Of a DNA stretch of 20,377 bases, positions 1 to 20,073 are shown piece by piece. Source of the stretch: a virus; IMG/VR virus record IMGVR_UViG_3300031565_005284, positions 1 to 20,377 of that record, one strand, 5' to 3'. The notes beneath the pieces are model-generated. The model searched no databases. It was not told where the DNA came from and was given only the letters and a program-made list of their open reading frames with translations. The first letter of the stretch is position 1, and each line of letters begins with the position of its first letter. The position numbers and the translations under genes were made by a program.

Positions 1-2
1 TG

Positions 3-347
3 ATGGCGACGCTGAACAATCACCCCGAGGCCAGCTACGCTTACGGCGCCTATGAACTCGACAATGGGATCCACTGCGATCAGCGGTTCGACGAAAAGAA
101 GTTGCGTCGCGGTAACTTCATTTCCACGATGGCCCTGATTCGCACCGATGACTTTCCCGGTTTCGATGAGGAGATCCAGCGGCTTCAGGATTGGGACCTC
201 TGGTTGACCATGCTCGAGCAGGGTAATACCGGCGCTTACTGTGGGCGCCTTACCTTCCGAACCGTGAAGCGCGCCGGCATCACATTTGGGCCGGGGATCA
301 GTTGGCGAGAGGCGGAACGCGCCGTCAAGGTCAAGCACGGATTATGA
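3..347 (+). CDS. Glycosyltransferase family 2, C-terminal part (5' truncated by window edge)
   Basis: This is the C-terminal portion of a GT2-type glycosyltransferase, which would transfer a sugar from an activated nucleotide donor to a glycan or protein acceptor. The visible part has the pattern seen after the donor site in GT2 enzymes: SYAYGAYEL, then RRGNFISTMALIRT, then GFDEEIQRLQDWDLWLTML, where the DWDLW segment carries the usual acidic residues before the acceptor region. The Rossmann-like N-terminal half with the first Asp motif is absent, so the ATG at position 3 is an internal Met and the gene starts upstream of the window. Its TGA overlaps the ATG of the next gene (ATGA), indicating translational coupling inside a glycosyltransferase operon. 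Confidence 0.8.
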   Translation: MATLNNHPEASYAYGAYELDNGIHCDQRFDEKKLRRGNFISTMALIRTDDFPGFDEEIQRLQDWDLWLTMLEQGNTGAYCGRLTFRTVKRAGITFGPGISWREAERAVKVKHGL

Positions 348-1042
348 GAATCGCCGTCTATACACTGACTCGCGATCGGCTGGAGTACACAATGGCGGCG
401 TTCGCAAGTCTTCGGGAAAAGGCCGGATTGCCGTTCGATCATTTCGTCGTCGATAACGGCTCGAAAGATGGGAGTTTGGACTGGATCATGGACGTTTCCA
501 AACCCTACTGGTTCCAGAACTTTCCGAACAATGTGGGGATCAGCGCTGGATCGAATCGGGCGCTTGGAGCCATACTTGCTCATGCCAAACCTTACGATTT
601 GATCGTGAAATTCGACAACGACTGTCTGGTAAAGAGCGCGAACATACTCGGTCAGTTTTGTGAGATCTTCGCCGACGTAAAGCGGTTTTCATCGGCTTTT
701 GTACTTTCTCCCCACGTTGAGGGAATCATAAACCAGCCGATTCGATCCCGGTATACGATGCTCGCTGGACGGCGTATCGGCTTGACTGCGATTGTTGGCG
801 GTCTGTTCCATGTCGTATCGCCCGAGATTTACCGGCAGTATCGTTACCCTTTGAACCTTCCCCTTGCCAGGGGCCAGGACGATCATTTCTGCAGGTGGTT
901 TAAGCGGCATGGCGGCGAGGTCGGATACGTCGAAGGGCTCACGGTCGAACACATGGAAGGTACCGATGGACAGGCCCGCCGGTATCCCGAATACTTCAAA
1001 CGGAAATGGCAGGAGGAAAAAACCATTGCGCCGTCTTCGTGA
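344..1042 (+). CDS. Glycosyltransferase family 2 (GT-A fold)
   Basis: A 232-aa GT2-like glycosyltransferase, predicted cytoplasmic. Seen: the N-terminal strand MRIAVYTLTRDR, the nucleotide-binding motif VVDNGSKDGS (Asp at about residue 37), the segment NVGISAGSNRAL typical of the family, a DxD-like metal and donor motif FDNDC at about residues 90-94, and a late acidic motif RGQDDHFCRWF that fits the catalytic-base region. The start at 344 is chosen because it forms an ATGA overlap with the upstream gene; a longer reading from 302 would only add an unsupported leader. Donor and acceptor cannot be read from the sequence. It overlaps the downstream methyltransferase by 17 nt if that gene starts at its TTG codon. 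Confidence 0.85.
   Translation: MRIAVYTLTRDRLEYTMAAFASLREKAGLPFDHFVVDNGSKDGSLDWIMDVSKPYWFQNFPNNVGISAGSNRALGAILAHAKPYDLIVKFDNDCLVKSANILGQFCEIFADVKRFSSAFVLSPHVEGIINQPIRSRYTMLAGRRIGLTAIVGGLFHVVSPEIYRQYRYPLNLPLARGQDDHFCRWFKRHGGEVGYVEGLTVEHMEGTDGQARRYPEYFKRKWQEEKTIAPSS
1011..1016 (+). promoter_or_regulatory. Shine-Dalgarno AGGAGG deciding a TTG start
   Basis: A perfect AGGAGG lies 9 nt before the TTG at 1026. No in-frame ATG occurs near the start of the methyltransferase homology; the next upstream in-frame ATG candidates lie well inside the preceding glycosyltransferase. This makes TTG 1026 the best start for the methyltransferase gene. Confidence 0.75.
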
Positions 1043-1628
1043 ACGAAAGATCGACACACCGGAATTTTACGAGAAGGTGTGGAGCGAAGAGTATAACACT
1101 AGACCTTACTATGATGCGGTTCGCCAACGCGCCCTTGCTCAAAAGGTCGAACCGGGGAACCGAGTTATTGACCTTGGCGCGGGGTGTTTTGGAACCGCGC
1201 AGTTTATCGTCGAGGAGCTTCAAATACCGGATGTGCTGTTGATTGCGGTCGATTACTCTTACACTGCACGGCGCATCGTCTTAAACCGTCTTGCGGGCCA
1301 TCATTGTTTCAACTATGTCTGCCATGCGGCAGAATCCACGCCGCTCCGTGCTTCCTGGTTTGACGTCGTGATTGCCGGCGAGTTGATCGAGCACTATGAA
1401 GATCCGGCTGTGCTGGTCCAGGAAATGGCGCGACTGACCAAACCGGGGGGCTGGATGGTGATTTCAACAGTCAATACCAAGTGCCCGAATGCCATCGCCC
1501 ACTGTGACTATCCGGAGCACGTTTGGGAGTTTGAGCCCGAGGATCTGATCCGGATGTTCGCGCCCTTCGGCAAGCCGTACTACTTTCTGCTCGGCGACTA
1601 CCATATGCTCGAGTGCCAAAGGATCTAA
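1026..1628 (+). CDS. Class I SAM-dependent methyltransferase
   Basis: A 200-aa Rossmann-fold methyltransferase using S-adenosylmethionine. Motif I is visible as VIDLGAGCFG (about residues 46-55), an acidic strand follows (LLIAVDYSY), then the post-II/motif IV region VIAGELIEHYEDP (from about residue 115) and motif VI-like LTKPGGWMVIST (from about residue 138). This matches the Methyltransf_11/23 type of small-molecule and sugar methyltransferases rather than DNA methyltransferases: there is no DPPY or PC motif. Its place among glycosyltransferases suggests O- or N-methylation of a sugar, which is an inference. The start is TTG with a perfect AGGAGG 9 nt upstream; an ATG-initiated reading from 864 would overlap the previous gene by about 180 nt and adds residues without recognisable homology. 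Confidence 0.85.
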   Translation: MRRLRERKIDTPEFYEKVWSEEYNTRPYYDAVRQRALAQKVEPGNRVIDLGAGCFGTAQFIVEELQIPDVLLIAVDYSYTARRIVLNRLAGHHCFNYVCHAAESTPLRASWFDVVIAGELIEHYEDPAVLVQEMARLTKPGGWMVISTVNTKCPNAIAHCDYPEHVWEFEPEDLIRMFAPFGKPYYFLLGDYHMLECQRI

Positions 1629-1674
1629 CGATGCTTCGTCTTGCCCGAAACGACCGCAACCTGATCGGAGTGTT

Positions 1675-2352
1675 ATGCAAGTAATCGTCACGTCTTATTG
1701 CCGTCCGCTGTACTTACGGCAGACGGTAAAATCGCTGCGGCAAGATCCGATCGAGTTGTATATCGTCGATGGCGGCTCCGACCAAGAGACCTGCGATTAC
1801 ATTCGGTCGGTTGCCGATGGTTGCCTCTTCTTCGAGGGCAACCCCGGCGCGGATCACCTGAAGACCGAGGGCATCAAGCAGTTCGTAACCGAGCCCGAGT
1901 TCGTTATCACGTCCGATGACATCGCCTATCCCAAGGGCTACTCGGCGCAGATCCTCGCCAACTACCGGGCGATCAACAAGAATGGCCTGGAGTGGACTTT
2001 TTGCGCTTGTAACCAGTGGAGCATCACGTCGAATCCAGGGCATCGGTTCATCACCGTGAATGGCGTCGAGATCCTGCCGGTTGCAACCTCCCAAGTTCTC
2101 GGCGCGATCATCGACACGGAAATCTGCCGGTCAGTCGGCTACTTTCCGGTCTATGGCAAGAGCGGCCAGGGCGACTGGGCGTTTTCTAAACGACTGCGGG
2201 ATCGGGGGCTGAAAATGGGGTATTGGCGGCAACCGATCGCCGAGCACATTGGGCGAAACAAATGGATCGATTATCCGGAATATTCGGAAGCCTTTGCACA
2301 GGATGAAAAACACTTTCATCCCAAAGCCATCGCCGATAAGGGCATGGGTTGA
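1675..2352 (+). CDS. GT2-like glycosyltransferase
   Basis: A 225-aa protein with a GT-A-type pattern. It begins with the first beta strand MQVIVTSYCRP, followed by the nucleotide motif YIVDGGSD (Asp about residue 32). A metal-binding DxD-like motif is seen in VITSDDIAYP (Asp 81 and 82), and the late segment GQGDWAFSKRLRDRGLKMGYW resembles the acidic catalytic region of GT2 enzymes. It follows the methyltransferase by 46 nt; a GGAG lies 4 nt before the ATG. A 17-codon ORF starting at 1631 overlaps this start and is probably spurious. Donor and acceptor are unknown. Its last 50 nt overlap the downstream deacetylase gene in another frame. Confidence 0.75.
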   Translation: MQVIVTSYCRPLYLRQTVKSLRQDPIELYIVDGGSDQETCDYIRSVADGCLFFEGNPGADHLKTEGIKQFVTEPEFVITSDDIAYPKGYSAQILANYRAINKNGLEWTFCACNQWSITSNPGHRFITVNGVEILPVATSQVLGAIIDTEICRSVGYFPVYGKSGQGDWAFSKRLRDRGLKMGYWRQPIAEHIGRNKWIDYPEYSEAFAQDEKHFHPKAIADKGMG

Positions 2353-2875
2353 CCTCGACGATTTCTGCGAGGGCAATCAGTCCTGGGAACAACTGGAGTG
2401 TATCAAGCGTCAAGTCCCTGGTTTCCGGGTCACGTTGTTTTCGATTTTGGGTCGCTGCTCGCAACGGTTTCTCCAATGGAGCCGGTCCTGGCCTTGGATT
2501 GATCTTGTGCCGCACGGCTGGATGCACCGGGATTGCTACGAGTGCGCCGCATGGACCTACGAGGAGATGATCCGCTATCTCGATCGCATCGAGCCCCTTC
2601 GGTTGACGCGGGGATTCAAGGCTCCCGGTTGGCAGATTTCCGATGCGGCCTATGTCGCCTTACAAGACCGCGGCTATTGGGTCGCCGATCAGGAGTACAA
2701 CGAACACCGCTGGCCGACTGGCTTGAAGGTCTACCTGCTCGATGATCCAAACAAGATTCACGGCCATATCGGACACCTGGGCGGCTTCAACCAAAACGAA
2801 CTGGGCCTCATTACCGATCGCATTGTCGCGCATCGCAACTTTGGTTTCATCAAAGATCTTGTTTCGTCCCCATGA
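2303..2875 (+). CDS. Polysaccharide deacetylase-like protein (NodB/CE4-type)
   Basis: A 190-aa protein with the motif series of NodB-type carbohydrate esterases, which remove acetyl groups from N-acetylated sugars using a divalent metal. Seen: an Asp cluster VDLDDF (Asp 17, 19, 20) near the N-terminus as motif 1; HGWMH (His 71 and His 75), an H-x3-H metal ligand pair, as motif 2; FKAPGW (about 105-110), equivalent to the R-x-P-x-G type motif 3 with Lys in place of Arg; and a His-rich HGHIGH (153-158) in the position of the last motif. At 190 aa it is short, so it may be a minimal or distant member. The ATG at 2303 overlaps the previous gene by 50 nt; an in-frame ATG at 2249 gives a longer but less likely product. 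Acting beside glycosyltransferases, it likely edits an N-acetylhexosamine in the same glycan. Confidence 0.7.
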   Translation: MKNTFIPKPSPIRAWVDLDDFCEGNQSWEQLECIKRQVPGFRVTLFSILGRCSQRFLQWSRSWPWIDLVPHGWMHRDCYECAAWTYEEMIRYLDRIEPLRLTRGFKAPGWQISDAAYVALQDRGYWVADQEYNEHRWPTGLKVYLLDDPNKIHGHIGHLGGFNQNELGLITDRIVAHRNFGFIKDLVSSP

Positions 2876-3762
2876 CTTACGACATCATTATTCCCCATTT
2901 CGGCGCGCCGGAAGTGACGCCGCTGGCGATCAACTGCCTCGAATCGATTCGCGCCTACAGCGCCGAGTACCGGCTGATCTTCGTCGACAACGGGAGCCCC
3001 GCCGAGGAGTGGGAAAAGATCGACCCTTATGTTCGCAGCCATGAGCGCCTGAGCCTGCTCCGCAACACTAAGAACACGGGGTTCATCACGGCAGTCAACG
3101 AAGCGCTGGCGCTTTCCACGGCTCCCTATATCGTGCTGATGAACAACGACACCGAGGCCGTCGCTGGATGGCTTGAGAAGCTCCGTGCTGCTCTCGAGAA
3201 CCGTGTCGGCATGTCAGGGCCGCGGACAACCACGGCGCAAAGCTGGCAGGGCCGCTGGCAGGGCAGAAACGGCATTCAGATCCTTCAGCCCCAGGCGATG
3301 CTAGCTTTCTTTTGCGTGATGATGACGCGCCAAGTCTTCGAGACGATCGGCTATCTGGATCCGGCCTACGGAATGGGATTCGGCGACGATGACGATTACT
3401 GCCGGCGCGCGGTTCAGGGTGGCTTTCAATTGGCGCTGGTTCAGGATCTTGTCATTCCCCACCATCACCGTAGTACCTGGAAGTCATTGTATACAAAGGC
3501 GCAGATCGTCGCAATGCAGAATGGCGCGATGCGGCGCTTTGAAAAATGGGAGGGTTCCGTGAAACACGAACCGCTTCAGGCGCTCGGCGCTTGGCAACAT
3601 CTGGAAGGCGAGCCTTCCTCTCAGTCGCCTTGTTGCAACGTCAAAGTCGTCGGAGCCATTCAGGACAATCATGTACTCCTGGGCCGGTGCGCCCGGTGCA
3701 AGAGTGACATTTACACGCTCAACGTCAAGACCGGGCAGCTTCGCGGGAGGCTCCGGGCCTGA
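2872..3762 (+). CDS. Glycosyltransferase family 2 with C-terminal Cys-rich zinc-ribbon-like tail
   Basis: A 296-aa protein. Residues 1 to about 220 are a clear GT2 domain resembling rhamnosyltransferase-type enzymes: DIIIPHFG strand, FVDNGSP nucleotide motif, NTGFITAVNEAL, the DxD-equivalent MNNDT (Asp about 93), and GFGDDDDYCRRA as the catalytic-base region, followed by HHHRSTWKS. Residues about 250-296 form an extra tail with Cys 254, Cys 255, Cys 273 and Cys 276 (the last two as CARC), spaced like a small zinc ribbon. Such a tail is not a usual part of GT2 enzymes and might bind a partner or the acceptor. The ATG overlaps the preceding TGA as ATGA, and the next gene begins on this gene's stop (TGATG), so the three genes are tightly coupled. 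Confidence 0.85.
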   Translation: MTYDIIIPHFGAPEVTPLAINCLESIRAYSAEYRLIFVDNGSPAEEWEKIDPYVRSHERLSLLRNTKNTGFITAVNEALALSTAPYIVLMNNDTEAVAGWLEKLRAALENRVGMSGPRTTTAQSWQGRWQGRNGIQILQPQAMLAFFCVMMTRQVFETIGYLDPAYGMGFGDDDDYCRRAVQGGFQLALVQDLVIPHHHRSTWKSLYTKAQIVAMQNGAMRRFEKWEGSVKHEPLQALGAWQHLEGEPSSQSPCCNVKVVGAIQDNHVLLGRCARCKSDIYTLNVKTGQLRGRLRA

Positions 3763-4460
3763 TGGTTACGCTGCTTACTCCGACTGGAGGCAGGCCAGAA
3801 GCATTTGCTCTCCTCGAACGTTGGATCGAGCGGCAGACTTACCGGGGCGAACTGCAATGGATCGTGATCGACGACTGCATTCCGCACATGCGGTTGACTC
3901 TCGGCCAGGATCATCTTTATCCGGTTCCGATCTGGCAGCCGGGGCAGAATACCCAGGCACGTAACCTCAAGGCCGCACTGCCCTTCATCAAGGGGGAGTT
4001 CGTCCTGTTCATCGAGGATGATGATTACTATGCGCCGGCCTACATCGAGCAGATGGTCAATCGGTTGAAAGAAGCCCCCTTAGTCGGAGAGCAATGCACG
4101 GTTTTCTACAACGTCCGGTATCGCTCCTACTATGTCCATCCGAATCGATCGAGCGCCAGTCTGTTCCAGATGGGCTTCCGTGTTCAGCCGAATACCGCCG
4201 AACAGGTAGCGAGAGCCCTCGGAACGCCCGGTTACATCGACGCGGAACTTTGTGCCCGGTGTCGCGGCCAATTGCGAATGTTCGCGCGCCATGTTCCGGC
4301 TCTTTCGATTGGGATAAAGGGCCTCCCGGGACGCGAGGGCATCGGGAGCGGCCACGATCCGCACGATCTTTTCAGATCCGATCCGAACTTGTCGATGCTC
4401 CGACTATGGATTGGAGAGGACGCCGATCAATATGTGGCGTTCTATCGGCCACGGAGATAA
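3762..4460 (+). CDS. GT-A/GT2-like glycosyltransferase
   Basis: A 232-aa protein starting on the last base of the previous stop codon (TGATG), with GGGAGG 11 nt upstream. The N-terminal half fits a GT-A glycosyltransferase: VTLLTPTGGRPEAF first strand and loop, WIVIDDC nucleotide motif, ARNLKAALPFIKGEFVLF, and the metal motif IEDDDYY (Asp 86-88). The C-terminal half (about 110-232) is divergent, contains a CARC pair, and ends with GHDPHDLF and an Arg-rich tail. Donor and acceptor are unknown. It is the last enzyme of the glycan cassette before the small zinc-finger gene. Confidence 0.75.
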   Translation: MVTLLTPTGGRPEAFALLERWIERQTYRGELQWIVIDDCIPHMRLTLGQDHLYPVPIWQPGQNTQARNLKAALPFIKGEFVLFIEDDDYYAPAYIEQMVNRLKEAPLVGEQCTVFYNVRYRSYYVHPNRSSASLFQMGFRVQPNTAEQVARALGTPGYIDAELCARCRGQLRMFARHVPALSIGIKGLPGREGIGSGHDPHDLFRSDPNLSMLRLWIGEDADQYVAFYRPRR

Positions 4461-4463
4461 TCA

Positions 4464-4649
4464 ATGGACGAAGACTACAGCACTTACAAATGGAAGGGGC
4501 AAACTCGCTATCGGTGCGAGTTCTGTCAATTCGACAGCTATTTGCCGGAGCTGATCGAAAAGCATGTTCGGGAAATTCACAGGTCGGCGAACAGAAGCAT
4601 CCTGCTCAATGCGACCGGTCAGCCTTTCGAGAATCCATTCGAGCAATAA
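4464..4649 (+). CDS. Small C2H2-type zinc finger protein
   Basis: A 61-aa protein with a single classical C2H2 pattern: Cys 18 and Cys 21, then 12 residues, then His 34 and His 39 (C-x2-C-x12-H-x4-H). Within the finger, Tyr 16, Phe 23 and Leu 30 could supply hydrophobic core positions. A GGAG lies 7 nt before the ATG and the gene starts 3 nt after the glycosyltransferase stop, so it is in the same transcript. Small zinc-finger proteins in phages may bind DNA, RNA or a protein; nothing here decides between these. The CxxC with a following aromatic resembles the Cys-rich tail of the glycosyltransferase at 2872-3762, raising a possible enzyme partner role (inference). Confidence 0.75.
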   Translation: MDEDYSTYKWKGQTRYRCEFCQFDSYLPELIEKHVREIHRSANRSILLNATGQPFENPFEQ

Positions 4650-4653
4650 TCCG

Positions 4654-5058
4654 ATGAGTAACATCATCATCGATCCCCGGCATCGTGCCGACAAACCGGA
4701 AGATGCCAATTGGGGCGCGCCGGCTCAAAAGGCACCGCGTCGTCACGAGGTATCCGCGCCAGCCATCTACACGGCGCGTCTTCTCATGCGGAACTTCGAC
4801 ATCAAGCCGAAGACCGTATCGGGGCGCACGCCGCCGACCATTCCGGTAAGTGAGTACAACATCGCGCTTTTTGTCGATCTCTGCACGATGCTGTTTCGGT
4901 TAACGCCACTGCCTCAGCAGATCGATCACTGGCTGCGAGAGTTGAAGCACAACCGAGCCTCGCAGCAAGACATTCAGAAGTTTCTCGGGGAATTGAAGCT
5001 CGCCTTCGATCGTATCCCGAGTTTTCGCAACTATTCCACTGTCTATGACAGGAGGTAA
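4654..5058 (+). CDS. DUF4214-like hypothetical protein
   Basis: A 134-aa protein lying between the glycan cassette and the tail tube gene. Residues about 1-65 are polar and Pro/Arg-rich without recognisable motifs. Residues about 68-115 (from YNIALFVDLCTMLFR through IDHWLRELKHNRASQQDI) resemble the DUF4214 helical pattern, in which an FV..LY..LLGR helix is followed by a GL.YW...L..G segment and a second helix. That domain is known from S-layer and glycosyltransferase-associated proteins; the match is from memory and approximate. By position (immediately before the tail tube gene) it could instead be a tail terminator or completion protein. The ATG at 4654 is preferred over 4564, which lies inside the zinc-finger gene. 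Confidence 0.5.
   Translation: MSNIIIDPRHRADKPEDANWGAPAQKAPRRHEVSAPAIYTARLLMRNFDIKPKTVSGRTPPTIPVSEYNIALFVDLCTMLFRLTPLPQQIDHWLRELKHNRASQQDIQKFLGELKLAFDRIPSFRNYSTVYDRR
5050..5055 (+). promoter_or_regulatory. Strong Shine-Dalgarno of the tail tube gene
   Basis: A perfect AGGAGG overlaps the end of the upstream gene and sits 8 nt before ATG 5064. A strong site fits a protein needed in hundreds of copies per virion. Confidence 0.7.
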
Positions 5059-5063
5059 TCACA

Positions 5064-5489
5064 ATGGCCATCACCACCGCAAAAGGAACTCTTATCAAAA
5101 TCGGCGACGCGTCCAGTCCCGAACTCTTCGCTCCCATCGGTGAAGTACGCTCCATCGACGGGCCGGGTGCCAGTGCTGTCGTGCAGGATGTTACGACGCA
5201 CGCGACGTCCGGAAACTGGATGAACAAGCTGGCTACGCTGCTCGATCCGGGCAACGTCAGTTTCGCCGTCAATTTCGATAAGGACGATGCGACCCACGCC
5301 TTTGCTACTGGTATGTGGGCCGATTTCATCGCTTTGTTCAAGCGCAACTGGCAGGAGATCTTTCCGAACTCCGCAGGCCAGTTGGCGTTCGCCGGCTATG
5401 TTACCGGCCATCCGTTCGTGGCGCCGGTCGACAACGTGCTCCAGGCAAACATTGAGCTGGCACTGACCGGAGCGATCGAGGCCACGTAA
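5064..5489 (+). CDS. Phage major tail tube protein
   Basis: A 141-aa protein read as the tail tube subunit that polymerises into stacked rings around the tape measure. The evidence is positional and compositional. It lies directly before a tail chaperone pair and the tape measure gene, the canonical order in siphoviruses. It has the length (about 140 aa) and the beta-rich, Ala/Gly/Thr-rich character of lambda V-type tube proteins, and the N-terminal pattern TTAKGTLIKIGD...FAPIGEVRSIDGPG common to phage tube proteins (a short strand, then an 'E-V-x-S-I' loop). It has a perfect AGGAGG ribosome site. No cleavage site or membrane segment is seen. It could also be a major tail protein of another fold, but the role is well supported by context. 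Confidence 0.8.
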   Translation: MAITTAKGTLIKIGDASSPELFAPIGEVRSIDGPGASAVVQDVTTHATSGNWMNKLATLLDPGNVSFAVNFDKDDATHAFATGMWADFIALFKRNWQEIFPNSAGQLAFAGYVTGHPFVAPVDNVLQANIELALTGAIEAT

Positions 5490-5505
5490 GCAGAATAAGG
5501 AGATC

Positions 5506-6048
5506 ATGAGCAAGATCAAGTTGGGCGGGGTGACCCGCCCTCTCTATTTTGACCTGAACACCTACACGGCGTTCGAGGAAAAGACCGGGCAATTCTTTCT
5601 GGAGTCGATCGCACGGCTCCAGCAGGCGGTAAGCGCCGCCGAAGAAACCATCGGCACGCTGTCCAAGGATCCGGCACAGCAGCAAAAACAGCTCATCGAG
5701 AAGAACATGGCCGTCCTGCGACGTGTCAGCTTCAAGGACATTCACGCGCTGCTGTGGGCCGCTCTCCACGAATATGATCCGCGCAATCCTGAAGCGGAAC
5801 CGACCTGGCCGCTCAGCCATGCCGAAGTCGGGCGCATGGTGAACTTCCACAACCTGAGCGAAGTCATCAACATCGTGATGAACGGGATCACCGAGCACTA
5901 CCCGAATCAGGATGAGATGCCCCAGGAGGTTCCGACAGACGGCGACCGCCCTACCGAAAGCCCCTCACCCGCCGCGAGTGGTGGGGAAACGTCTTCGGGC
6001 TTGCCCGATTCCATTTCCGCGTCCCTCGAACTGAGTTCGGACGCCTGA
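5506..6048 (+). CDS. Tail assembly chaperone (gpG-like)
   Basis: A 180-aa protein in the position of lambda gpG between tail tube and tape measure genes. It acts in the cytoplasm and coats the tape measure during tail assembly; it is not part of the virion. Seen: a short N-terminal beta region (KIKLGGVTRPLYFDLNTY), helical central segments with FEEKTGQFF and RVSFKDIHALLWAAL, which resemble tail chaperone families, and a disordered Pro/Ser/Glu-rich C-terminus (about 140-180). That disordered end covers a region where the -1 frame is open and protein-like, as expected where the ribosome shifts to make a G-T fusion. AAGGAG precedes the ATG closely. Confidence 0.75.
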   Translation: MSKIKLGGVTRPLYFDLNTYTAFEEKTGQFFLESIARLQQAVSAAEETIGTLSKDPAQQQKQLIEKNMAVLRRVSFKDIHALLWAALHEYDPRNPEAEPTWPLSHAEVGRMVNFHNLSEVINIVMNGITEHYPNQDEMPQEVPTDGDRPTESPSPAASGGETSSGLPDSISASLELSSDA

Positions 6049-6296
6049 CGCTGCGCGAGTTCTTTATCCTGCTGCGCGAGTTTCGCCTCGAGCAGCGGAT
6101 GTGGAATCTTCGTGTGTGGTATCTGATCCACTTCAGCTACAACACACAGATTCCAGACAAGGACCGGCACAAGCGGCTTCGTCCAGAGCAACTGTTTCCG
6201 GATCTTGCTACCGTTCCTGTGTCCGAAGGGGCCGAGGTCGATCCAGACCTTTCCTACAAGCAGCACTTAATGATGTTTGGCCGCATGAGCGGCTGA
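5916..6296 (+). CDS. Tail assembly chaperone T-domain, -1 frame extension (gpGT-like)
   Basis: After a stop at 5913-5915, the frame one base behind the gpG-like gene is open from 5916 to the TGA at 6294-6296. It has no credible start codon with a ribosome site before ATG 6099. Its product is protein-like across the overlap and beyond the gpG stop, for example RTEFGRLTLREFFILLREF and RMWNLRVWYLIHFSY, so translation of only the ATG 6099 piece (65 aa) would lose the strongest part. This matches lambda-type gpG/gpGT, where a low-frequency -1 shift adds a T domain that recruits the tube protein. The shift would happen within 5916-6048; the exact codon is not determined. Coordinates give the open extension, not an independent gene. 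Confidence 0.65.
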   Translation, partial: DAPGGSDRRRPPYRKPLTRREWWGNVFGLARFHFRVPRTEFGRLTLREFFILLREFRLEQRMWNLRVWYLIHFSYNTQIPDKDRHKRLRPEQLFPDLATVPVSEGAEVDPDLSYKQHLMMFGRMSG

Positions 6297-6315
6297 TCCC
6301 CCAACAAACAAATCC

Positions 6316-9300
6316 ATGACCAACGTAATCGCAGATCTGGCAGTGCGCCTTACGGCCAATATGTCGGATGTGAACGCCAAGTTCACGAAGTTGGATACCG
6401 ACCTGAAGACTGCCTCGTCGGGATTCACGGCGATAGGGGGCGATCTGACTTCGCTCGGCACCAAACTGTCGATTGGACTTACTGCACCATTGGTCGCTGC
6501 CGGCATCGCCGCATTCAATTTCAGTACCGACTTCAACGCGGCGATGGCGAACGTAGCGACGTTGATACCGGGCAATGTTGATCGCGTCGAGGAGTTGAAA
6601 ACCGCCGTGCAGAATATGGCGGTAGAGGTCGGCAAATCGACCGGCGACCTCGCGGGTGGTCTATATCAGATTATTTCGGCCTTCGGAGATTCTGCGGACA
6701 CAGCGCAATTATTGGAGATCAACGCGAAAGCAGCGGCCGCTGGACTCGCCACAACGACCGATGCCATCAACCTCACCAGTTCGGTCACCAAAGGCTATGG
6801 CGACGTGACTGCCGAGGCCGCGCAGAAGGCGGCGGATCTCGCTTTCCAGACGGTCAAGCTCGGGCAAACTACCTTTCCCGAGTTGGCAGCTTCCATCGGT
6901 AGGGTTGTCCCGATCGCCGCGACATTGGGAGTAACCCAGGAAGAATTATTCGCCGGCTTTGCAACGCTGACCGGTGTTACCGGAAACGCCTCGGAAGTTT
7001 CCACACAGCTTGCCGGGATTTTGCGGGCGATGATTAAGCCTACGGATGATATGTCGGAAGCTATCAACTCTTTGGGTTACGAGTCGGCGCAAGCAATGGT
7101 ACAAGACCTCGGACTCGTGGGCTCGCTGCGGGCGTTGATCGGCACGACTGACGGATCCCAGGAGGCCGTGGGTGAGTTGGTACAGCGCGCGGAAGCCCTG
7201 ACCTCTATCTTTGCCCTGAGTGGCGGGCAGGCTGAGACGTTCGATCAGAAATTGGCCGCGATGGCGGATACTACCGGAGTGGCGACCGAAGCGTTTCGGG
7301 AACAGACCGAGGGCATCAACGCGACTGGCTTTCAGTGGAATCAATTCAAAATTCGTATGACCGGCGTTGTTGAAAAACTTGGTGACGGGCTCTTGCCAGC
7401 GCTCTCAAAGTTGCTCGACCTTCTCGAGCCCGTCGTCGGATGGATCGGCGAGATGGCTGATAAGTTCGGCAATCTTCCGACGCCGATTCAAACTACCGTT
7501 ATTGCCGTGGTGGCGCTGGCTGCTGCCATCGGCCCGATGCTGATTGTCGCCGGTCAGTTGGTTACTGCGGTCGGTTCGATAATCCCCGTACTTACTAAAC
7601 TCATCGCAGTGACGGGGGGCGGATCTGCTGCGCTCATGGGCATTGCGAAGGCCGTGCCTGTGGCCGCCGCCGCTTTCGCTGGCTGGAAACTCGGCGAGTG
7701 GCTAAATTCCTTCACGAATGAGTACAAGGATGCCGAGGAAAAAGTACAGGCATTGAGCGATTCGCTCGAAGCACAGGGCGTCGTAATTGAACGCGGCGGA
7801 AAAAGCCTGAAGGACTGGGCCGCTGAGGTATTCAAGGCTAGCGAAGCCCTAGACGCGAACAAGAAGAGCACAGAAGCGGCAAAGGAAGCGACCAAAAAGG
7901 CAGCGGAAGCGGCCAAAAAGGCAGCGGAGGAACAGAAGAAGTTTACGGAGAAGCAGAAAGTAGCCGTCAAAACTGCTGCCGAGCTGGAAAAGGAACAAAA
8001 GGACCTAAATGAAGCCTATGACAAGTACCAAAAGTACCTGAAGGACGCGAAACGCGAGACGGCGCTCCATCAGACAGAGATCTGGAAGCTCAATCGGGAA
8101 ACGATCAAAGCGAAGGACGCGACGGCGCTGTTCTACCAGGGGCTGATTAAAGTCGGGGATGAGACGGTTGATTACACTGCCGTAGCCTATCGCCTGCGCG
8201 ATTCCCTCACGGCCATTGAAACTGCTGCGCTGGACGTGAAGGACATGATGCCTCCGTTCTCGCAGGCGATCAGTGACGCCATCGGCCTGTCCACTCCCCA
8301 GGTCAACAAGCTGGGCGACGCCATGAAGACGCTCGGGCTGGACTCCATCGCCTCGAAACAAACGATCGCCGAGCAGATGACGGCCGCCCGCGATGCCGTG
8401 CTAGGCAGCGGCGTGGCAACCGACTTCGAGAAACAAACCGCGATTTACCGGGCGCTGAAGGCTCAGGTCGACGCCGCGAAGGAAGCCGGGGTCGATATTC
8501 CGGCCGAGCAGCAGAAACTTCTCGATCAGCTTCGCACTGAACTCGAAGGGGATAAGGGAGTGTCGAGCCTGAAGAAGCCCTGGGACAGCCTGAAAAGCCA
8601 GGTATCGACGATCTTTACCGATCTCAGTAAAGATCTGAACGACATCCTTTGGGGCGAAGGCGGGGAGTCGATCAAGTCCAAGTTCCTCGGTATGTTCGAG
8701 TCGATGGGGCAGGCGGTAACCCGGTTCGTCATCGAGTATCTGGAGGGCAAACTGTTCAGCGCGTTTGCCAAGCTCCTCGATGATATTTTGCCGGCCATCG
8801 GTAAGGCGCTCGGCGGTCTGTTCGGCTTCGGTGGCGGCGCGGCGGCGGCTGCTGGAACAGCGGCTGGTACGGCTGCCGGCGGCGCAGCGGCGGGGGCTGG
8901 CGGCGCAGCGGGAACTGCGGTGGGCGCGGGCATCAGTGGGACACTCGGCGCTGTGTTCGGCGGGATCAGTGCGGCCACCGGCGTGATCGGCCTGTTTCAG
9001 AACGCAAAGCAGGAAACCACCCTTAATGCGATCGAAGAGAGCACACGGCGTTCCGCCCTCTACCTCGGCGACCGAGCCGATGGCGGCATCCTGGGCGTGC
9101 TCTTCAGTATCAACGAAGAATTGGCGTGGGGAGTTGGGACGAAAGCACTGGAACGGATCCGGGATGAAATGGTAAACCTAGGCGCGGGTTACATCAATCC
9201 GTCGCTCGATACCTTAAAGGACAATGCTGCGGCGATCAAATCCAGCCTGGAAGCTCTGGAAACCGTAGGCCTGAAAGTCACTCCAGAAGCCGATGTGCGC

Positions 9301-10035
9301 GACATAATTCCTCCTGATGTGTTCAGTGATATTGACGGCCACCTTACTATAATCTCCGACGAAATGAAACAGCTTGGTGCGGGTTACATCAACCCATCGC
9401 TGGATTCGATGAAGCAGGCGCTTTGGGATATTATCGCGCTCCTATCCGGTGGAATTGTCATATCCGATTCAGCGCTTTCAGCGTTGGAAGAGTTATCTAC
9501 TCCCACAATCCCGGAACCCATAATACCGCCACTATCCCCAGATCCTGGCCTAATGGGAAACATTACTGCCGCTGGACTTGCCAGCAATGCCCTGGCTTTC
9601 CGCGAGTGGACAGTTGAAATGCTGTCTTCGATTTCCTCTGCAATTACAACTCCTCCCGAACTTGACATTACGCCGCTTACTTCACTGCTAACCAGCATTG
9701 GGGCGAGACTCACCGAAATCTGGGATCGTATTGGAACACTCACGGACGTTCTGACCTTCCATGCCAAGGCGCTTTGCGCGGGCATCCTACCGCGTCTGGA
9801 TAAGTTGATCTTCCACACCGAGGCGCTCTGCGCGGACATTCTGCCACGTCTGGATGTTCTGAATCTTCAGACTGAGGCGCTCTACGCCGGCGTCGTCCCA
9901 CGGCTGGATCAGATCGCCAGCCAGCCGCGCGCTAACATCACGATCAACGTTGCGGTCGGAGGCACGTCTTCGACTGCCGACGATATCGCCAACGCGATCG
10001 CCAATAGTCTGCGCTCCCAAGGGCTTGCTTCTTAA
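6316..10035 (+). CDS. Tail tape measure protein
   Basis: A 1239-aa protein that sets tail length and occupies the tube lumen. It is the longest single-chain helical protein of the tail module and follows the G/GT chaperones. N-terminal residues 1 to about 300 look like the TP901-type core, with the repeated pattern of Gly/Ala-rich helices (SLGTKLSIGLTAPLVAAGIA, FSTDFNAAMANVA, VGKSTGDLAGGLYQ). A hydrophobic stretch lies at about 391-435. A highly charged Lys/Ala/Glu coiled coil spans about 465-600. A Gly/Ala-rich low-complexity and hydrophobic segment lies at about 836-895. The C-terminus carries two kinds of internal repeats (about 949-1033 and 1146-1199). At about 1.5 angstrom per residue it predicts a tail near 185 nm. 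No lytic transglycosylase or peptidase motif was recognised. No clear SD precedes the ATG. Confidence 0.9.
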   Translation: MTNVIADLAVRLTANMSDVNAKFTKLDTDLKTASSGFTAIGGDLTSLGTKLSIGLTAPLVAAGIAAFNFSTDFNAAMANVATLIPGNVDRVEELKTAVQNMAVEVGKSTGDLAGGLYQIISAFGDSADTAQLLEINAKAAAAGLATTTDAINLTSSVTKGYGDVTAEAAQKAADLAFQTVKLGQTTFPELAASIGRVVPIAATLGVTQEELFAGFATLTGVTGNASEVSTQLAGILRAMIKPTDDMSEAINSLGYESAQAMVQDLGLVGSLRALIGTTDGSQEAVGELVQRAEALTSIFALSGGQAETFDQKLAAMADTTGVATEAFREQTEGINATGFQWNQFKIRMTGVVEKLGDGLLPALSKLLDLLEPVVGWIGEMADKFGNLPTPIQTTVIAVVALAAAIGPMLIVAGQLVTAVGSIIPVLTKLIAVTGGGSAALMGIAKAVPVAAAAFAGWKLGEWLNSFTNEYKDAEEKVQALSDSLEAQGVVIERGGKSLKDWAAEVFKASEALDANKKSTEAAKEATKKAAEAAKKAAEEQKKFTEKQKVAVKTAAELEKEQKDLNEAYDKYQKYLKDAKRETALHQTEIWKLNRETIKAKDATALFYQGLIKVGDETVDYTAVAYRLRDSLTAIETAALDVKDMMPPFSQAISDAIGLSTPQVNKLGDAMKTLGLDSIASKQTIAEQMTAARDAVLGSGVATDFEKQTAIYRALKAQVDAAKEAGVDIPAEQQKLLDQLRTELEGDKGVSSLKKPWDSLKSQVSTIFTDLSKDLNDILWGEGGESIKSKFLGMFESMGQAVTRFVIEYLEGKLFSAFAKLLDDILPAIGKALGGLFGFGGGAAAAAGTAAGTAAGGAAAGAGGAAGTAVGAGISGTLGAVFGGISAATGVIGLFQNAKQETTLNAIEESTRRSALYLGDRADGGILGVLFSINEELAWGVGTKALERIRDEMVNLGAGYINPSLDTLKDNAAAIKSSLEALETVGLKVTPEADVRDIIPPDVFSDIDGHLTIISDEMKQLGAGYINPSLDSMKQALWDIIALLSGGIVISDSALSALEELSTPTIPEPIIPPLSPDPGLMGNITAAGLASNALAFREWTVEMLSSISSAITTPPELDITPLTSLLTSIGARLTEIWDRIGTLTDVLTFHAKALCAGILPRLDKLIFHTEALCADILPRLDVLNLQTEALYAGVVPRLDQIASQPRANITINVAVGGTSSTADDIANAIANSLRSQGLAS
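7888..7929 (+). repeat. 21-bp tandem repeat in the tape measure coiled coil
   Basis: Two adjacent 21-nt units (7888-7908 and 7909-7929) differ at few positions and encode the heptads ATKKAAE and AAKKAAE. One unit equals one heptad, so duplication would lengthen the coiled coil while keeping its register. Confidence 0.8.
9160..9414 (+). repeat. Pair of GAGYINPSLD repeats in the tape measure C-terminus
   Basis: The motif DEM-x2-LGAGYINPSLD appears twice, with Met codons at 9169 and 9364, 195 nt (65 residues) apart. The DNA copies differ mostly at third codon positions, so the repetition is kept at protein level. Confidence 0.8.
9751..9912 (+). repeat. Three 54-bp tandem repeats near the tape measure C-terminus
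   Basis: Three adjacent 18-codon units occupy 9751-9804, 9805-9858 and 9859-9912. Each unit carries the pattern (K/E)AL(C/Y)A-x-(I/V)(L/V)PRLD. The first two have Cys where the third has Tyr. The DNA has diverged at many third positions, so the array is not a very recent expansion. Confidence 0.9.
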
Positions 10036-10038
10036 ATC

Positions 10039-12360
10039 ATGCGTCTTTTCATCGAGATTGGCGACATCCCTCGTGGGAATCAGGTCTTGCTCGAGGGCTT
10101 CGACATCACTAAGGATCTCGGGGGCCGGATGGCTATGTGCCGGTTGCAAATGCTGGCCGATCCCTCCGAGCGGGCGGCGGTCGGTCTCGGTAAAGTCGGC
10201 AGCGCGGTCGTCGGTCAGTCGCCGAGCCCGTTTCAAGAAATCGTCATCAACGAAAACCTCGGAAGCTCCCCGCTCGGCGTTTACTTCGATGAGGCGACTT
10301 TTGACGAAGCGATCTTCGGCGGCGGTACCGGAGGCTCTCCGGTTGGCGATCGCCAGTTCGCGGGCTACGTTTCCGACGTTCGGCCTGAGTACCTCCGCTC
10401 CAATCCCGCCAAGATCAAGTACCACATCACTTGCCAGGATTACACCGTCCTTCTCGATAACACCGAAGTCACCGAGATCAGCTATTCAAACCAGACCGAC
10501 AAGGACATCATTCAGGCCGTTTTCACCGCCTACCTTCCGGAAGTCGATACGTCGCTCGTTTCCTCGCTGACCACGATCGAGACGTTCAATCTCGAGGGCG
10601 AGAGCCTCCGGACCTTCATGGAGAAGATCGCGGAGCTGACGGGCGCCGAGTGGTACCTCGACTTCGACAAGCGCCTCCGCTACTATTTGCCTTCCTCGAA
10701 CCCTGCCCCGTTTTCCCTCACCGAGACTCCCGATTACAGCACCAGTTTCGATTTCGACCGCAAGAGCTTCGACTATGCAGAGGATTTCCGGACGCCGGCA
10801 AACCGGGTGAAGGTGATCGGCGGGCTCAAAGAGAACGAAACCGCCTACACCGCGACGTCTCAGGATCTCAACAGCCAAGCCGCGTTTGGGAAAGTCTTCA
10901 GCCGGGTGATCGTCGATCGCAACATCGCCTCGGACACCGAGGCGCAGCTTCGCGCCCAGGTCGAAGTTCAGCGGTACGCCTTTCCGGAGAAAAACGGGAC
11001 GGTGACCTACCGGCGCGATGGCGTGAACATCGGCCAATTGCTCACCATCAACTCGCCGACGCGCGGGCTATCCGGTGACTTTCTAGTGCGAAAACTCTCG
11101 ATGCGCTGGAAAAATCCCTCGCTCACCGAGTACACCGCGGAGTTCGGCGACTACCGGCCCGATCTCGCCAAGACGCTGCGGCGGCTGAAGGAGTTGGCGA
11201 AGGAAAAAGCCCCGACGCCGCTGGCGAAGCCGGTTCAGAAATCGGTCTATGTCGATCACTTCGCGTCGACCATCGAGCCGGTGCAGATCGTCAATTCCCT
11301 GCCCTCGCTCCCGGATCCAAACTACAGCGCGAATGCCGTAGTCCTGCTCACCACGGACCGGAAGATCTACCGTAGGAACGGCGACGCTTGGACCGCCGTG
11401 GTTCCGACCACGGACCTCAGCGGAACGATCATCGAAACGCAGATCGCCAACGATTCAATCTCGACGCCAAAGCTTCAGGCTCTTTCGGTAACCTCAGGCA
11501 TTCTCGCCGCCAATTCGGTCATCGCCGGGAAGGTTGCGGCTGACGCCGTGACTGCCGGGACGATTGCCGTGGGTGCGATTCGTGCCATCGATGCGGTTTT
11601 TGATTCCGGCGCGATCCAGAGCGCCGACATCGGCAACGCGCAGATTAACAATGCTCACATCGTCAGCTTGGGCGCTTCGAAACTCACAGCAGGAACGATT
11701 GACGCCAGTGTCATCACGGTCACGAATCTAAACGCCTCAAATATCACGACGGGCACGTTGAGCGGTAGCTACCTCGATGATGGGACGGTTGCTGACATTA
11801 AGATCGCCTCGGGCCTGAGCGCCACGAAGATCACCACAGGTACCCTCGACGCCTCCGTCGTGAGCGTGACGAACCTGAATGCCTCGAACATCACAACCGG
11901 ATCGATGGCTGCTGATCGCATTGGAGCAGGAACGATGGATGTAGGCAGCGGCGGGCTGACGATCAACGGAACAGGTAGCGTGACCGTAGCCTACAACGTC
12001 AGGGCGACCGACTTCAAGAGTAAGACCAGCGGAAATTTGGTCATCAACTCGTCTGATGAGTTTGTCGGCACCAATGTCAAGACCGGAGGCACTGGAGCAA
12101 CCGGCAGTGTTCAGACAAACTCCCTGAACGTCGGCGGCGCACAACGTATCGATTCCACCGGGGCGGGCAATCTCGCAACGGTCCAATGTGGGGCCTGGGC
12201 GAACTCTTCCGAATATCGGGTGGGAACCATAAAAGTAGTCGGGGCTCAGGGTTCCGCCATCGGCAACCCGACAGGCGGGACCACAGTGGACACGGAGGCC
12301 CGAGCCGTGATTGTGAGCATTCTCGGGGCCATCCGTACCCACGGCTTGATCGCAACGTAA
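10039..12360 (+). CDS. Baseplate hub / tail tip protein fused to fibre-like C-terminus
   Basis: A 773-aa protein starting 3 nt after the tape measure stop, in the position of the tail hub (gp27-, late D- or gpJ-type). Residues 1 to about 390 are beta-rich with hub-like features: FIEIGDIPRGNQVLLEGFDI, the insertion GDRQFAGYVSDVRP, YHITCQDYTVLLDN, a central SLRTFMEKIAELTGAEWYLD typical of hub second domains, and NRVKVIGGLKENE. A Pro/Lys linker (about 390-405) leads to a repetitive C-terminus (about 440-690) of T-x-G-T-I-x-A-S and NLNASNITTG units, as in gpJ-like central fibres, ending in a small globular cap. It would close the tail tube and project toward the cell surface. The assignment is from order and motif style; no enzymatic residues were recognised. 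No SD is seen, suggesting coupling to the tape measure gene. Confidence 0.7.
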   Translation: MRLFIEIGDIPRGNQVLLEGFDITKDLGGRMAMCRLQMLADPSERAAVGLGKVGSAVVGQSPSPFQEIVINENLGSSPLGVYFDEATFDEAIFGGGTGGSPVGDRQFAGYVSDVRPEYLRSNPAKIKYHITCQDYTVLLDNTEVTEISYSNQTDKDIIQAVFTAYLPEVDTSLVSSLTTIETFNLEGESLRTFMEKIAELTGAEWYLDFDKRLRYYLPSSNPAPFSLTETPDYSTSFDFDRKSFDYAEDFRTPANRVKVIGGLKENETAYTATSQDLNSQAAFGKVFSRVIVDRNIASDTEAQLRAQVEVQRYAFPEKNGTVTYRRDGVNIGQLLTINSPTRGLSGDFLVRKLSMRWKNPSLTEYTAEFGDYRPDLAKTLRRLKELAKEKAPTPLAKPVQKSVYVDHFASTIEPVQIVNSLPSLPDPNYSANAVVLLTTDRKIYRRNGDAWTAVVPTTDLSGTIIETQIANDSISTPKLQALSVTSGILAANSVIAGKVAADAVTAGTIAVGAIRAIDAVFDSGAIQSADIGNAQINNAHIVSLGASKLTAGTIDASVITVTNLNASNITTGTLSGSYLDDGTVADIKIASGLSATKITTGTLDASVVSVTNLNASNITTGSMAADRIGAGTMDVGSGGLTINGTGSVTVAYNVRATDFKSKTSGNLVINSSDEFVGTNVKTGGTGATGSVQTNSLNVGGAQRIDSTGAGNLATVQCGAWANSSEYRVGTIKVVGAQGSAIGNPTGGTTVDTEARAVIVSILGAIRTHGLIAT
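11686..11907 (+). repeat. Pair of 75-bp repeats in the hub fibre region
   Basis: Units at 11686-11760 and 11833-11907 each encode 25 residues, reading T-x-GT(I/L)DAS followed by TNLNASNITTG. They are 147 nt apart in phase. Synonymous differences between copies indicate protein-level conservation of a fibre repeat. Confidence 0.85.
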
Positions 12361-12801
12361 TCAGTTGGTTTCGTTCACTTCGATCAGCCGTGTCGCCGCC
12401 GTTGCCTTGAGTGGCGTTATAAGGATCGATCGGACCTGGACCTTACCGACCAGGAACAGATGGTTTGTCCACTCCGGTTGATCCCGATAGTGCCGTGGTA
12501 CAAAGTCCATCCGACAGAGATCTCTCCCCAATTGGTCGCGATAATTCAATGTGATCGAGAGCGCTTCCGTCTCATTATCGGAGATGTAGACGGCAACCCA
12601 AATACCTTCTTGGGCCTGTTGGGGTGCGGGTGCAATCCAGATGCCGCCTCGCTGTGGCTGCTGGAATAGACGTATCAGCCCGGTTGTACTCCAGTGATAC
12701 CAGTGGACGGTCAGGCTATCCGATCCCTGCGCTCGGATTTGCGGAACGACGGCGATCAACGCGATCACGATCAGGATCGTAATTCTTTGAAGGATTTTCA
12801 T
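12361..12801 (-). CDS. Small exported protein, reverse strand (moron-like)
   Basis: A 146-aa protein on the strand opposite to all surrounding tail genes. Its stop codon abuts the stop of the hub gene. The N-terminus is a clear Sec signal peptide: MKILQR, a hydrophobic core ITILIVIALIAVV, and a cleavage site after QIRA. The mature part of about 120 residues is probably beta-rich (alternating LTVHWYHWST, GGIWIAPAP, GIWVAVYIS, ALSITLNYR) and has one Cys. No family is recognised. A GGGAG lies 8-9 nt upstream of the ATG and a promoter-like sequence lies about 50 nt upstream, so it can be expressed independently of the late operon. Such morons are often expressed from prophages and change the host envelope; that role is an inference here. 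Confidence 0.7.
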   Translation of the reverse strand: MKILQRITILIVIALIAVVPQIRAQGSDSLTVHWYHWSTTGLIRLFQQPQRGGIWIAPAPQQAQEGIWVAVYISDNETEALSITLNYRDQLGRDLCRMDFVPRHYRDQPEWTNHLFLVGKVQVRSILITPLKATAATRLIEVNETN

Positions 12802-19645: not shown

Positions 19646-20073
19646 TCGGGGCTCGGCTTGGTTTGCAATGCCAAGCCGATCAGATCGCGGTGTTCGGATG
19701 TGAGTTCGGCGAGGGCCAGGAAGAAATTACGATCTTCCTCGGTCTTACTCAATCCCGCCAGCAGCAAGCACGCAAACGAACCAGGTTTGCGGTTTTGCTG
19801 GAGCCAATTCCCGACTGTTCCGTGTGCCAGCTTCAATGTTTCGGAGAGTTCCTGTTGCGTGAGTCCCAGGGCCTTTTTGAGTGCGCGTATGCGATCTTTC
19901 ACGACTTTCCGGCGCTGCCACTCATTGTGCGGAATTTCCTTTTCCCTTTTTGGGGTTATGGTCAATGGCGGAACGCTTTGATGGGGCGTTTTGAGCTGGC
20001 GTTGTTGATTTCGCAATCTCATTTCGGTCTCGTTTTCCCGAATCCTTTGTTCCCTTGGTCGGCGCTTCGCCAT
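19642..20073 (-). CDS. XRE-type helix-turn-helix DNA-binding protein
   Basis: A 143-aa reverse-strand protein. Residues 1-55 are strongly basic and polar (MAKRRPREQR...). The HTH domain lies at about 60-105: RIRALKKALGLTQQELSETL provides helices 1 and 2, and the recognition helix follows in AHGTVGNWLQQNRKP, a classical XRE/Cro-CI pattern. A short helical C-terminus follows (LALAELTSEHRDLIGLAL). It is likely a transcription regulator, possibly of phage lifestyle genes. The basic arm could add nonspecific DNA binding. Its stop overlaps the stop of the 1275-aa gene by two bases (convergent). A purine-rich ribosome site (GGGGAAAGG) precedes the ATG. It lies downstream of the 79-aa gene on the same strand and may be cotranscribed with it. 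Confidence 0.75.
   Translation of the reverse strand: MAKRRPREQRIRENETEMRLRNQQRQLKTPHQSVPPLTITPKREKEIPHNEWQRRKVVKDRIRALKKALGLTQQELSETLKLAHGTVGNWLQQNRKPGSFACLLLAGLSKTEEDRNFFLALAELTSEHRDLIGLALQTKPSPD
19653..19679. terminator. Perfect 9-bp hairpin at the convergent gene ends, possible terminator
   Basis: TCGGCTTGG (19653-19661) pairs perfectly with CCAAGCCGA (19671-19679) across a 9-nt loop. It lies 7 nt after the end of the tail-operon stop codon and inside the last codons of the reverse HTH gene. No T-run follows on either strand, so classical intrinsic termination is not clear. It may act with Rho or be a chance coding palindrome. Confidence 0.35.

Follow-up and report, generated by a model that had tools for sequence, protein, structure and literature searches.

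Gene content of the cassette

The 20,377 bases of DNA analyzed here make up the whole of one IMG/VR virus record (IMGVR_UViG_3300031565_005284, hereafter the window), whose first 4460 positions are occupied by a cassette of seven genes on the + strand, which we designate GTa, GTb, MT, GTc, DAC, GTd and GTe. Their products comprise five glycosyltransferases (GTs) of the GT-A/GT2 type, an S-adenosylmethionine (SAM)-dependent methyltransferase, and a deacetylase with a predicted CE4 fold. A preliminary description of this DNA had listed seven consecutive, tightly coupled genes with these enzyme types, and all seven were found in their assigned places and orientation (Table 1). The cut-off for family PF00535 was passed by GTa, GTc, GTd and GTe; the match of GTb fell below it, yet this protein aligns with 30 or more phage GTs, and inspection of the sequences revealed acidic DxD-like motifs in all five transferases. 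The edge of the window cuts GTa, whose complete copy of 190 amino acids, carrying a DDD motif, lies at positions 5067-5639 of contig L038 (contigs other than the window are given L numbers). In MT, the glycine-rich motif I reads VIDLGAGCFG.

The coupling of the genes was likewise borne out, with ATGA junctions at GTa/GTb and DAC/GTd, a TGATG junction at GTd/GTe, and two further overlaps at GTb/MT and GTc/DAC. Candidate promoters and terminators in positions 1-6500 of the window did not exceed the number expected by chance, and we therefore make no claim of an internal transcription start. No candidate transmembrane segment was detected in any cassette protein. As a separate observation, the C-terminal third of GTd forms a Cys-rich, zinc-ribbon-like tail (CC...CxxC), and the 227-amino-acid GTd of contig L044 is too short to hold such a tail.

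Table 1. Cassette genes and adjoining tail genes in the window.
Feature	Position	Strand	Basis
GTa, GT2/GT-A glycosyltransferase, C-terminal part (gene cut by window edge)	1..347	+	PF00535 E 9.9e-10, phrog_14775 6e-7 (full protein)
GTb, GT2-like glycosyltransferase, DND motif	344..1042	+	PF13641 1.6e-4, PF00535 4e-4
MT, class I SAM-dependent methyltransferase, TTG start, overlaps GTb	1026..1628	+	PF13489 (Methyltransf_23) 1.2e-14
GTc, GT2 glycosyltransferase	1675..2352	+	PF00535 3.9e-5, over cut-off
DAC, CE4/NodB-type polysaccharide deacetylase (predicted)	2303..2875	+	43-homologue alignment, AlphaFold model, fold comparison
GTd, GT2 glycosyltransferase, Cys-rich C-terminal tail	2872..3762	+	PF00535 1.3e-18; tail read from sequence
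GTe, GT-A glycosyltransferase	3762..4460	+	PF00535 2.3e-7; 30-member alignment; model
Small zinc-finger-like protein, 61 amino acids	4464..4649	+	tblastn matches beside tail-tube gene in L101, L102, L103, L106, L107, L047
134-amino-acid tail-module protein	4654..5058	+	upstream neighbour of tail tube in all relatives seen
Major tail (tube) protein	5064..5489	+	phrog_158 6.5e-15, PF16460 2e-6
Tape measure protein	6316..10035	+	phrog_991 2.2e-55
Tail tip or fibre-like protein	10039..12360	+	phrog_1330 8e-15

Fold and motifs of DAC and GTe

DAC matched no Pfam family at E 0.1 and no PHROG family, and comparison of its sequence with the PDB gave only marginal matches; its assignment was decided by a fold search. 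The AlphaFold model of DAC (predicted local distance difference test score, pLDDT, 94) matched an acetylxylan esterase with VIA Z 13.3 (2.8 Å over 153 residues) and ArnD and PgdA with VIA Z 12.6, while the best Foldseek match was the turret deacetylase domain of HFTV1 (2.5e-5; VIA Z 11.2). When 43 phage homologues were aligned, residues D19, D20, H71 and H75 were invariant, the FKAPGWQI core was invariant or nearly so, and H153/H155 were conserved at 90% or more. By predicted fold and conserved motifs, DAC is a CE4/NodB-type deacetylase with a predicted activity, and the CE4-like identity originally proposed for it stands despite the missing Pfam match, which, judged from the model, is a matter of sequence divergence with the CE4 fold and motifs retained. 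Although DAC shares its fold and its metal and catalytic motifs with the CE4 (NodB) enzymes ArnD, PgdA, the acetylxylan esterases and the HFTV1 turret, it differs from them in lacking a Pfam match and in belonging to a compact subfamily whose FKAPGWQI motif is fixed. In GTe, the motifs EDD and KG.PG..G.G.GH were invariant in an alignment of 30 members, and the model (pLDDT 94.5) has a confident GT-A fold, with SpsA as the closest.

The resemblance to HFTV1 raises a genuine alternative for DAC alone, that this enzyme, perhaps with other products of the cassette, is borne on the virion and edits host glycans at attachment, for which the turrets of the archaeal virus HFTV1 (PMC12494034) and the tailspike of Acinetobacter phage Aristophanes (PMC8471582) are precedents. 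We regard this as improbable, since DAC is a single domain of 190 amino acids lacking an attachment, stalk or carbohydrate-binding domain, and the VIA scores of common bacterial CE4 enzymes slightly exceed that of HFTV1. It would also leave the transferases unexplained, and these travel with DAC in 54 of 56 cassettes (counted with duplicates of the window removed and some near-duplicates kept).

A search of 694 sampled genomes of Pseudomonadota and Bacteroidota, the only cellular groups covered (Acidobacteriota lay outside the sample), detected no DAC; as a positive control, the same search detected it in 6 of 6 DAC-bearing records.

Position of the cassette in the late operon

Two contigs overlap the window, L002 (99% over 9.7 kb) and L038 (100% over 2.9 kb), and extend it upstream by 4.9 and 5.3 kb, respectively. 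The upstream genes encode, in order, a repetitive protein of 1,174 amino acids, proteins of 132 and 111 amino acids that occupy a connector position and have PHROG matches of unknown function, a Neck1/tail-completion protein, and a head-tail connector protein, labelled tail terminator, whose gene is overlapped by the start of GTa through ATGA. With connector and tail-completion genes preceding it, the cassette comprises exactly seven genes and is complete. Extending the contig had been proposed as a way to find further glycan genes and sugar-nucleotide genes, and neither was present upstream. No sugar-nucleotide, flippase, polymerase or membrane gene is attached to the cassette, including the 5.3 kb upstream, and the initial finding that flippase, O-antigen polymerase and membrane proteins are lacking therefore holds over this additional DNA. 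With virion genes on both sides of the cassette in the overlapping contigs, the proposed location in a phage late operon was supported and an origin as a host locus outside a prophage, which would have contradicted the suggested assembly of a glycan on tail or fibre proteins, is excluded. The preliminary description had also placed the cassette directly before the tail-tube gene, and this needs correction, as two small genes intervene (Table 1). The 61-amino-acid zinc-finger gene was considered as a cassette member and rejected; it adjoins the tail tube at loci without a cassette as well. In contig L101, whose tail tube is 59% identical, the terminator is followed by the zinc-finger, 134-amino-acid-type and tube genes with no cassette at that site, indicating that the site can be empty; the glycan genes of L101, including a 1,639-amino-acid fusion, are located a few genes upstream. 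Farther downstream in the window, a tail gene in the chaperone position lies between the tail-tube and tape-measure genes. Relatives of the tail tube in phage records belong to distant phages associated with Streptomyces, Thermobifida and Tetraselmis.

Late-operon position bears on the possibility that the target is a surface glycan of the host, such as lipopolysaccharide (LPS), capsule or another envelope polymer, whose modification would block superinfection or change serotype in the manner of the gtr and oac morons. Surface-polysaccharide pathways typically include GTs and CE4 enzymes, ArnD is close in fold to DAC, the GT-A part of GTd weakly matches the GtrB-like family phrog_841, and a paper on acidobacterial viral operational taxonomic units lists a polysaccharide deacetylase alongside a GtrB-like protein (PMC11924767). 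We nevertheless consider this explanation unlikely. A GtrA-type flippase (PF04138) and a WcaJ/WbaP-type initiating transferase were each found in 0 of 27 related records, which weakens the case for O-antigen conversion, the cassette proteins lack transmembrane segments, and genes located in a structural operon, as they are here and in the prophages of isolates, would be silent in a lysogen. Compared with gtrABC and other O-antigen conversion modules, with which it shares GT2-type enzymes on phage genomes, this cassette has no GtrA and no membrane anchors in GTa to GTe, and is embedded among structural genes.

Diverse phage GTs decorate DNA (Pyle 2024, as cited in PMC12619734), and the transferases might accordingly be thought to glycosylate hypermodified bases in phage DNA. 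This is very improbable, however, because the cassette sits with virion genes and not with replication genes, it is not evident what a CE4 deacetylase would do on DNA, and a thymidylate/hydroxymethylase-type synthase (PF00303) was found in only 2 of 27 related records and in none of the window's own contigs, although these records are fragments.

Recurrence of the cassette in unrelated phages

Homologues of GTe were found on 36 viral contigs and in 21 bacterial genome assemblies, and homologues of DAC on 64 viral contigs; the homologous cassettes were collected regardless of their genomic position. Proteins encoded in the flanks of GTe loci matched Neck1 (14 proteins), adaptor, head closure, head protease, major head, terminator and tail-tube families, and those flanking DAC matched further glycosyltransferases along with adaptor, terminator, major head and tail-tube families. 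The GTe homologues in bacterial assemblies, among them those of Lysobacter and Stenotrophomonas isolates, sit in such head-neck-tail blocks, and prophages of these cultured bacteria carry a reduced form, consisting of GTe and a methyltransferase or a GT42-like gene; examples are Lysobacter antibioticus HS124, with MT-GTe, and Stenotrophomonas sp. 278, with GTe and the GT42-like gene. In 7 of 8 long contigs, GT2 genes were restricted to the late-block cassette, the exception being the contig of L101, where a second group occurs. When searched against 50,697 phage records, DAC and GTb gave no match and GTe a single weak one.

Gene order was also retained. Among the 56 DAC cassettes, GTb was the most frequent upstream partner (39 upstream, 6 downstream), MT also lay mostly upstream (31 upstream, 6 downstream), and GTd mostly downstream (35 downstream, 12 upstream), giving a preferred order of GTb - MT - DAC - GTd across unrelated phages. 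A nearly full order, GTa-GTb-GTc-DAC-GTd-GTe, was present in L044, L056 and L047. The major head families of L044 and L056 differ (phrog_4523 and phrog_29, respectively), and other DAC phages have phrog_1357, phrog_267 or phrog_10; the comparison of gene order suggested in the preliminary description thus yielded the same order in uncultured phages whose head and tail genes are unrelated, for the most part within the head-neck-tail block.

GTe loci contained MT in 28 of 61 cases and a protein matching CstI/CstII in 25 of 61. The latter belongs to a family with the signature GGPSL...IND...CD..WW (42 members in the loci, among them L044:5309-5959, L101:7017-7682, L104:2134-2820, L106:7374-8042 and L107:2897-3571), which adjoins MT or GTe in related phages and matches the GT42 sialyltransferases CstI/CstII of Campylobacter with a profile E of 5e-5, although only about 75 residues align; the window has no such gene. 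Several other glycan genes were noted in related phages. The fusion gene of L101 (2117-7036), in the head-tail region, joins FkbM methyltransferase, GT2 and GT4 domains and has a weaker match to GT9 (heptosyltransferase). The same region of L102 (145-3106) and L103 (341-4431) contains a sulfotransferase, a TylF methyltransferase and a GT2-like gene, and L103 has a candidate transaldolase gene, recognized by eye only. A cassette gene of 323 amino acids in L044 (7681-8652) bears a weak likeness to glycoside hydrolase family 76 (E 5e-4, under the cut-off).

Gene exchange and selection

Comparison of the window with its sibling L003 revealed marked differences among the cassette genes. Connector and tail proteins were 87-96% identical and the zinc-finger protein 61%, and the outer transferases were also similar (GTa 93%, GTd 92%, GTe 86%). 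In the middle of the cassette, L003 carries an NAD-dependent epimerase and another transferase in place of MT and GTc, and identity dropped to 57% for GTb and 52% for DAC; both are closer to their counterparts in the unrelated phage L044 (67% and 58%, respectively). GTb is a mosaic, its first 40 residues being 92% identical to L003, whereas the remaining 185 are 50% identical to L003 and 64% identical to L044. In the DAC tree, the window and L044 were grouped (support 0.87) with L003 outside. The whole-protein GTb tree still pairs the window with L003, and exchange within GTb is therefore indicated by the identity mosaic and not by tree topology.

The ratio of nonsynonymous to synonymous substitution rates (dN/dS) relative to L003 was 0.06-0.16 for GTa, GTd and GTe, 0.13 for GTb, and 0.24 for DAC, with dS near saturation in the last two genes. 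Low ratios combined with replacement of the middle genes show that the genes are kept functional while enzymes are swapped, and sequence comparison thus indicates that the cassette is undergoing modular exchange under purifying selection. The values of 0.06-0.24, together with the recurrence of an ordered set in dozens of phage contigs, also argue that the cassette is not a chance assembly. This is relevant to the suggestion that the neck-tail junction is an ordinary cargo (moron) site, which tolerates insertions of genes with assorted unrelated functions. The contents do vary widely among phages (sulfotransferase, TylF and FkbM methyltransferases, epimerases), but they are overwhelmingly glycan enzymes, they recur in the preferred order in unrelated phages, and they are under purifying selection, making a cargo site quite improbable.

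A putative virion-glycosylation system

The cassette encodes phage-borne glycan modification of a kind most like virion glycosylation, and on balance we lean towards the view that it is a phage virion-glycosylation system, in which soluble enzymes would assemble an oligosaccharide, and modify it, on a virion protein produced at the same time. The preliminary description had offered a similar interpretation, assembly of a methylated, partly deacetylated oligosaccharide on tail or fibre proteins, which is thus partly supported. This view is based on the position of the genes, their recurrence at the head-neck-tail junction of unrelated phages, which strengthens it, the lack of membrane partners, and the precedent of the mycobacteriophages, which carry glycans on capsid and tail-tube subunits (Freeman 2023, PMID 37329881, as cited in PMC12619734 and PMC11256854). 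As is characteristic of virion-glycosylation systems, the GTs found here are phage-encoded and without membrane partners, with virion genes on either side and no transmembrane segments.

In the proposed scheme, the cassette would be expressed late, together with the neck and tail genes. The soluble GT-A enzymes would take nucleotide sugars from the host and assemble a short oligosaccharide in the cytoplasm, to be attached to a virion protein made simultaneously, for which a tail-tube, neck or fibre protein would be the likeliest acceptor. MT would cap a sugar by methylation, and DAC would strip an acetyl group, for example from an N-acetylhexosamine, completing or unmasking the glycan. In close relatives, swapping of the middle enzymes with retention of the first and last transferases would alter the structure of the sugar, as expected if an exposed glycan is under diversifying pressure. 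We infer late expression, cytoplasmic assembly, a virion acceptor, the chemistry and order of the steps, the sugars involved, and the biological purpose.

Several points weigh against virion glycosylation. Only candidate acceptors can be offered, and both the window and its closest relatives are fragmentary, such that partner genes may lie elsewhere. A late-operon position is no proof of a virion target, since products of late genes may act on the host envelope too. The weak PHROG match of GTd, confined to its GT-A part, is to a family of O-antigen conversion, and ArnD, an LPS-precursor deformylase, is among the folds closest to DAC. With regard to acceptors, the 1,174-amino-acid repeat protein upstream of the connector genes (L038:24-3548), which has no Pfam or PHROG match, is conceivable as a head or neck decoration protein that receives the glycan.

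In the mycobacteriophage systems of the Che8, Rita and Maravista type, the GTs are likewise phage-encoded, with a capsid or tail-tube subunit as the putative target, and the available text of PMC12619734 and PMC11256854 does not mention membrane partners, of which this cassette also has none. According to PMC11256854, a few GTs lie near the 3' end of the Maravista genome. In contrast, the cassette described here places five GTs, a methyltransferase and a deacetylase between neck and tail-tube genes, with an exchangeable middle. Its size, editing functions, preferred order, placement, and swapping between unrelated phages set it apart from known systems, and a full-text literature search found no published description of a cassette of this type.

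More tentatively, and with less than even confidence, we propose that this is one instance of a widespread, unrecognized system in uncultured tailed phages, in which ordered, horizontally exchanged neck-tail sets of soluble GT2, GT4 and GT42-like enzymes, methyltransferases and phage-specific CE4 enzymes glycosylate virion proteins with chemically edited oligosaccharides particular to each phage type, and "serotype" shifts by swapping of enzyme genes rather than fibre genes. If this is true, the particles of many uncultured phages would be coated with variable sugars edited by enzymes, and the responsible gene sets would be interchangeable units passed from one phage to another, unrelated one. 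Virion glycosylation would then be a common trait and not an oddity limited to some mycobacteriophages, and attachment and recognition would gain an extra source of variation.

Other features of the window

A CI-repressor-like helix-turn-helix protein (PF07022, 2.7e-5) is encoded on the - strand at positions 19642-20073, which hints at a temperate phage. On the same strand at positions 12361-12801, a lone open reading frame of 146 amino acids with a signal-peptide-like start and no Pfam match lies between tail genes. Following the tail genes are two proteins of 785 and 1275 amino acids (13461-15818 and 15818-19645) with Sec-signal-like N-termini, MKRLFLFLLATGLLCAQ and MRWLAALLALPLAAA, respectively; such starts are odd for virion proteins, and neither protein has a Pfam match. 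Similar large signal-bearing proteins are encoded in L101 (17058-20414) and L106 (3485-6028). The signal peptides of the window have an acidobacterial look, which is an impression only. Finally, the window and L002 differ at 90 positions over 9.7 kb, of which 89, plus a small indel, fall in the tape-measure gene (window 6316-9670) and one in the cassette, and this clustering suggests recombination within the tape-measure gene.

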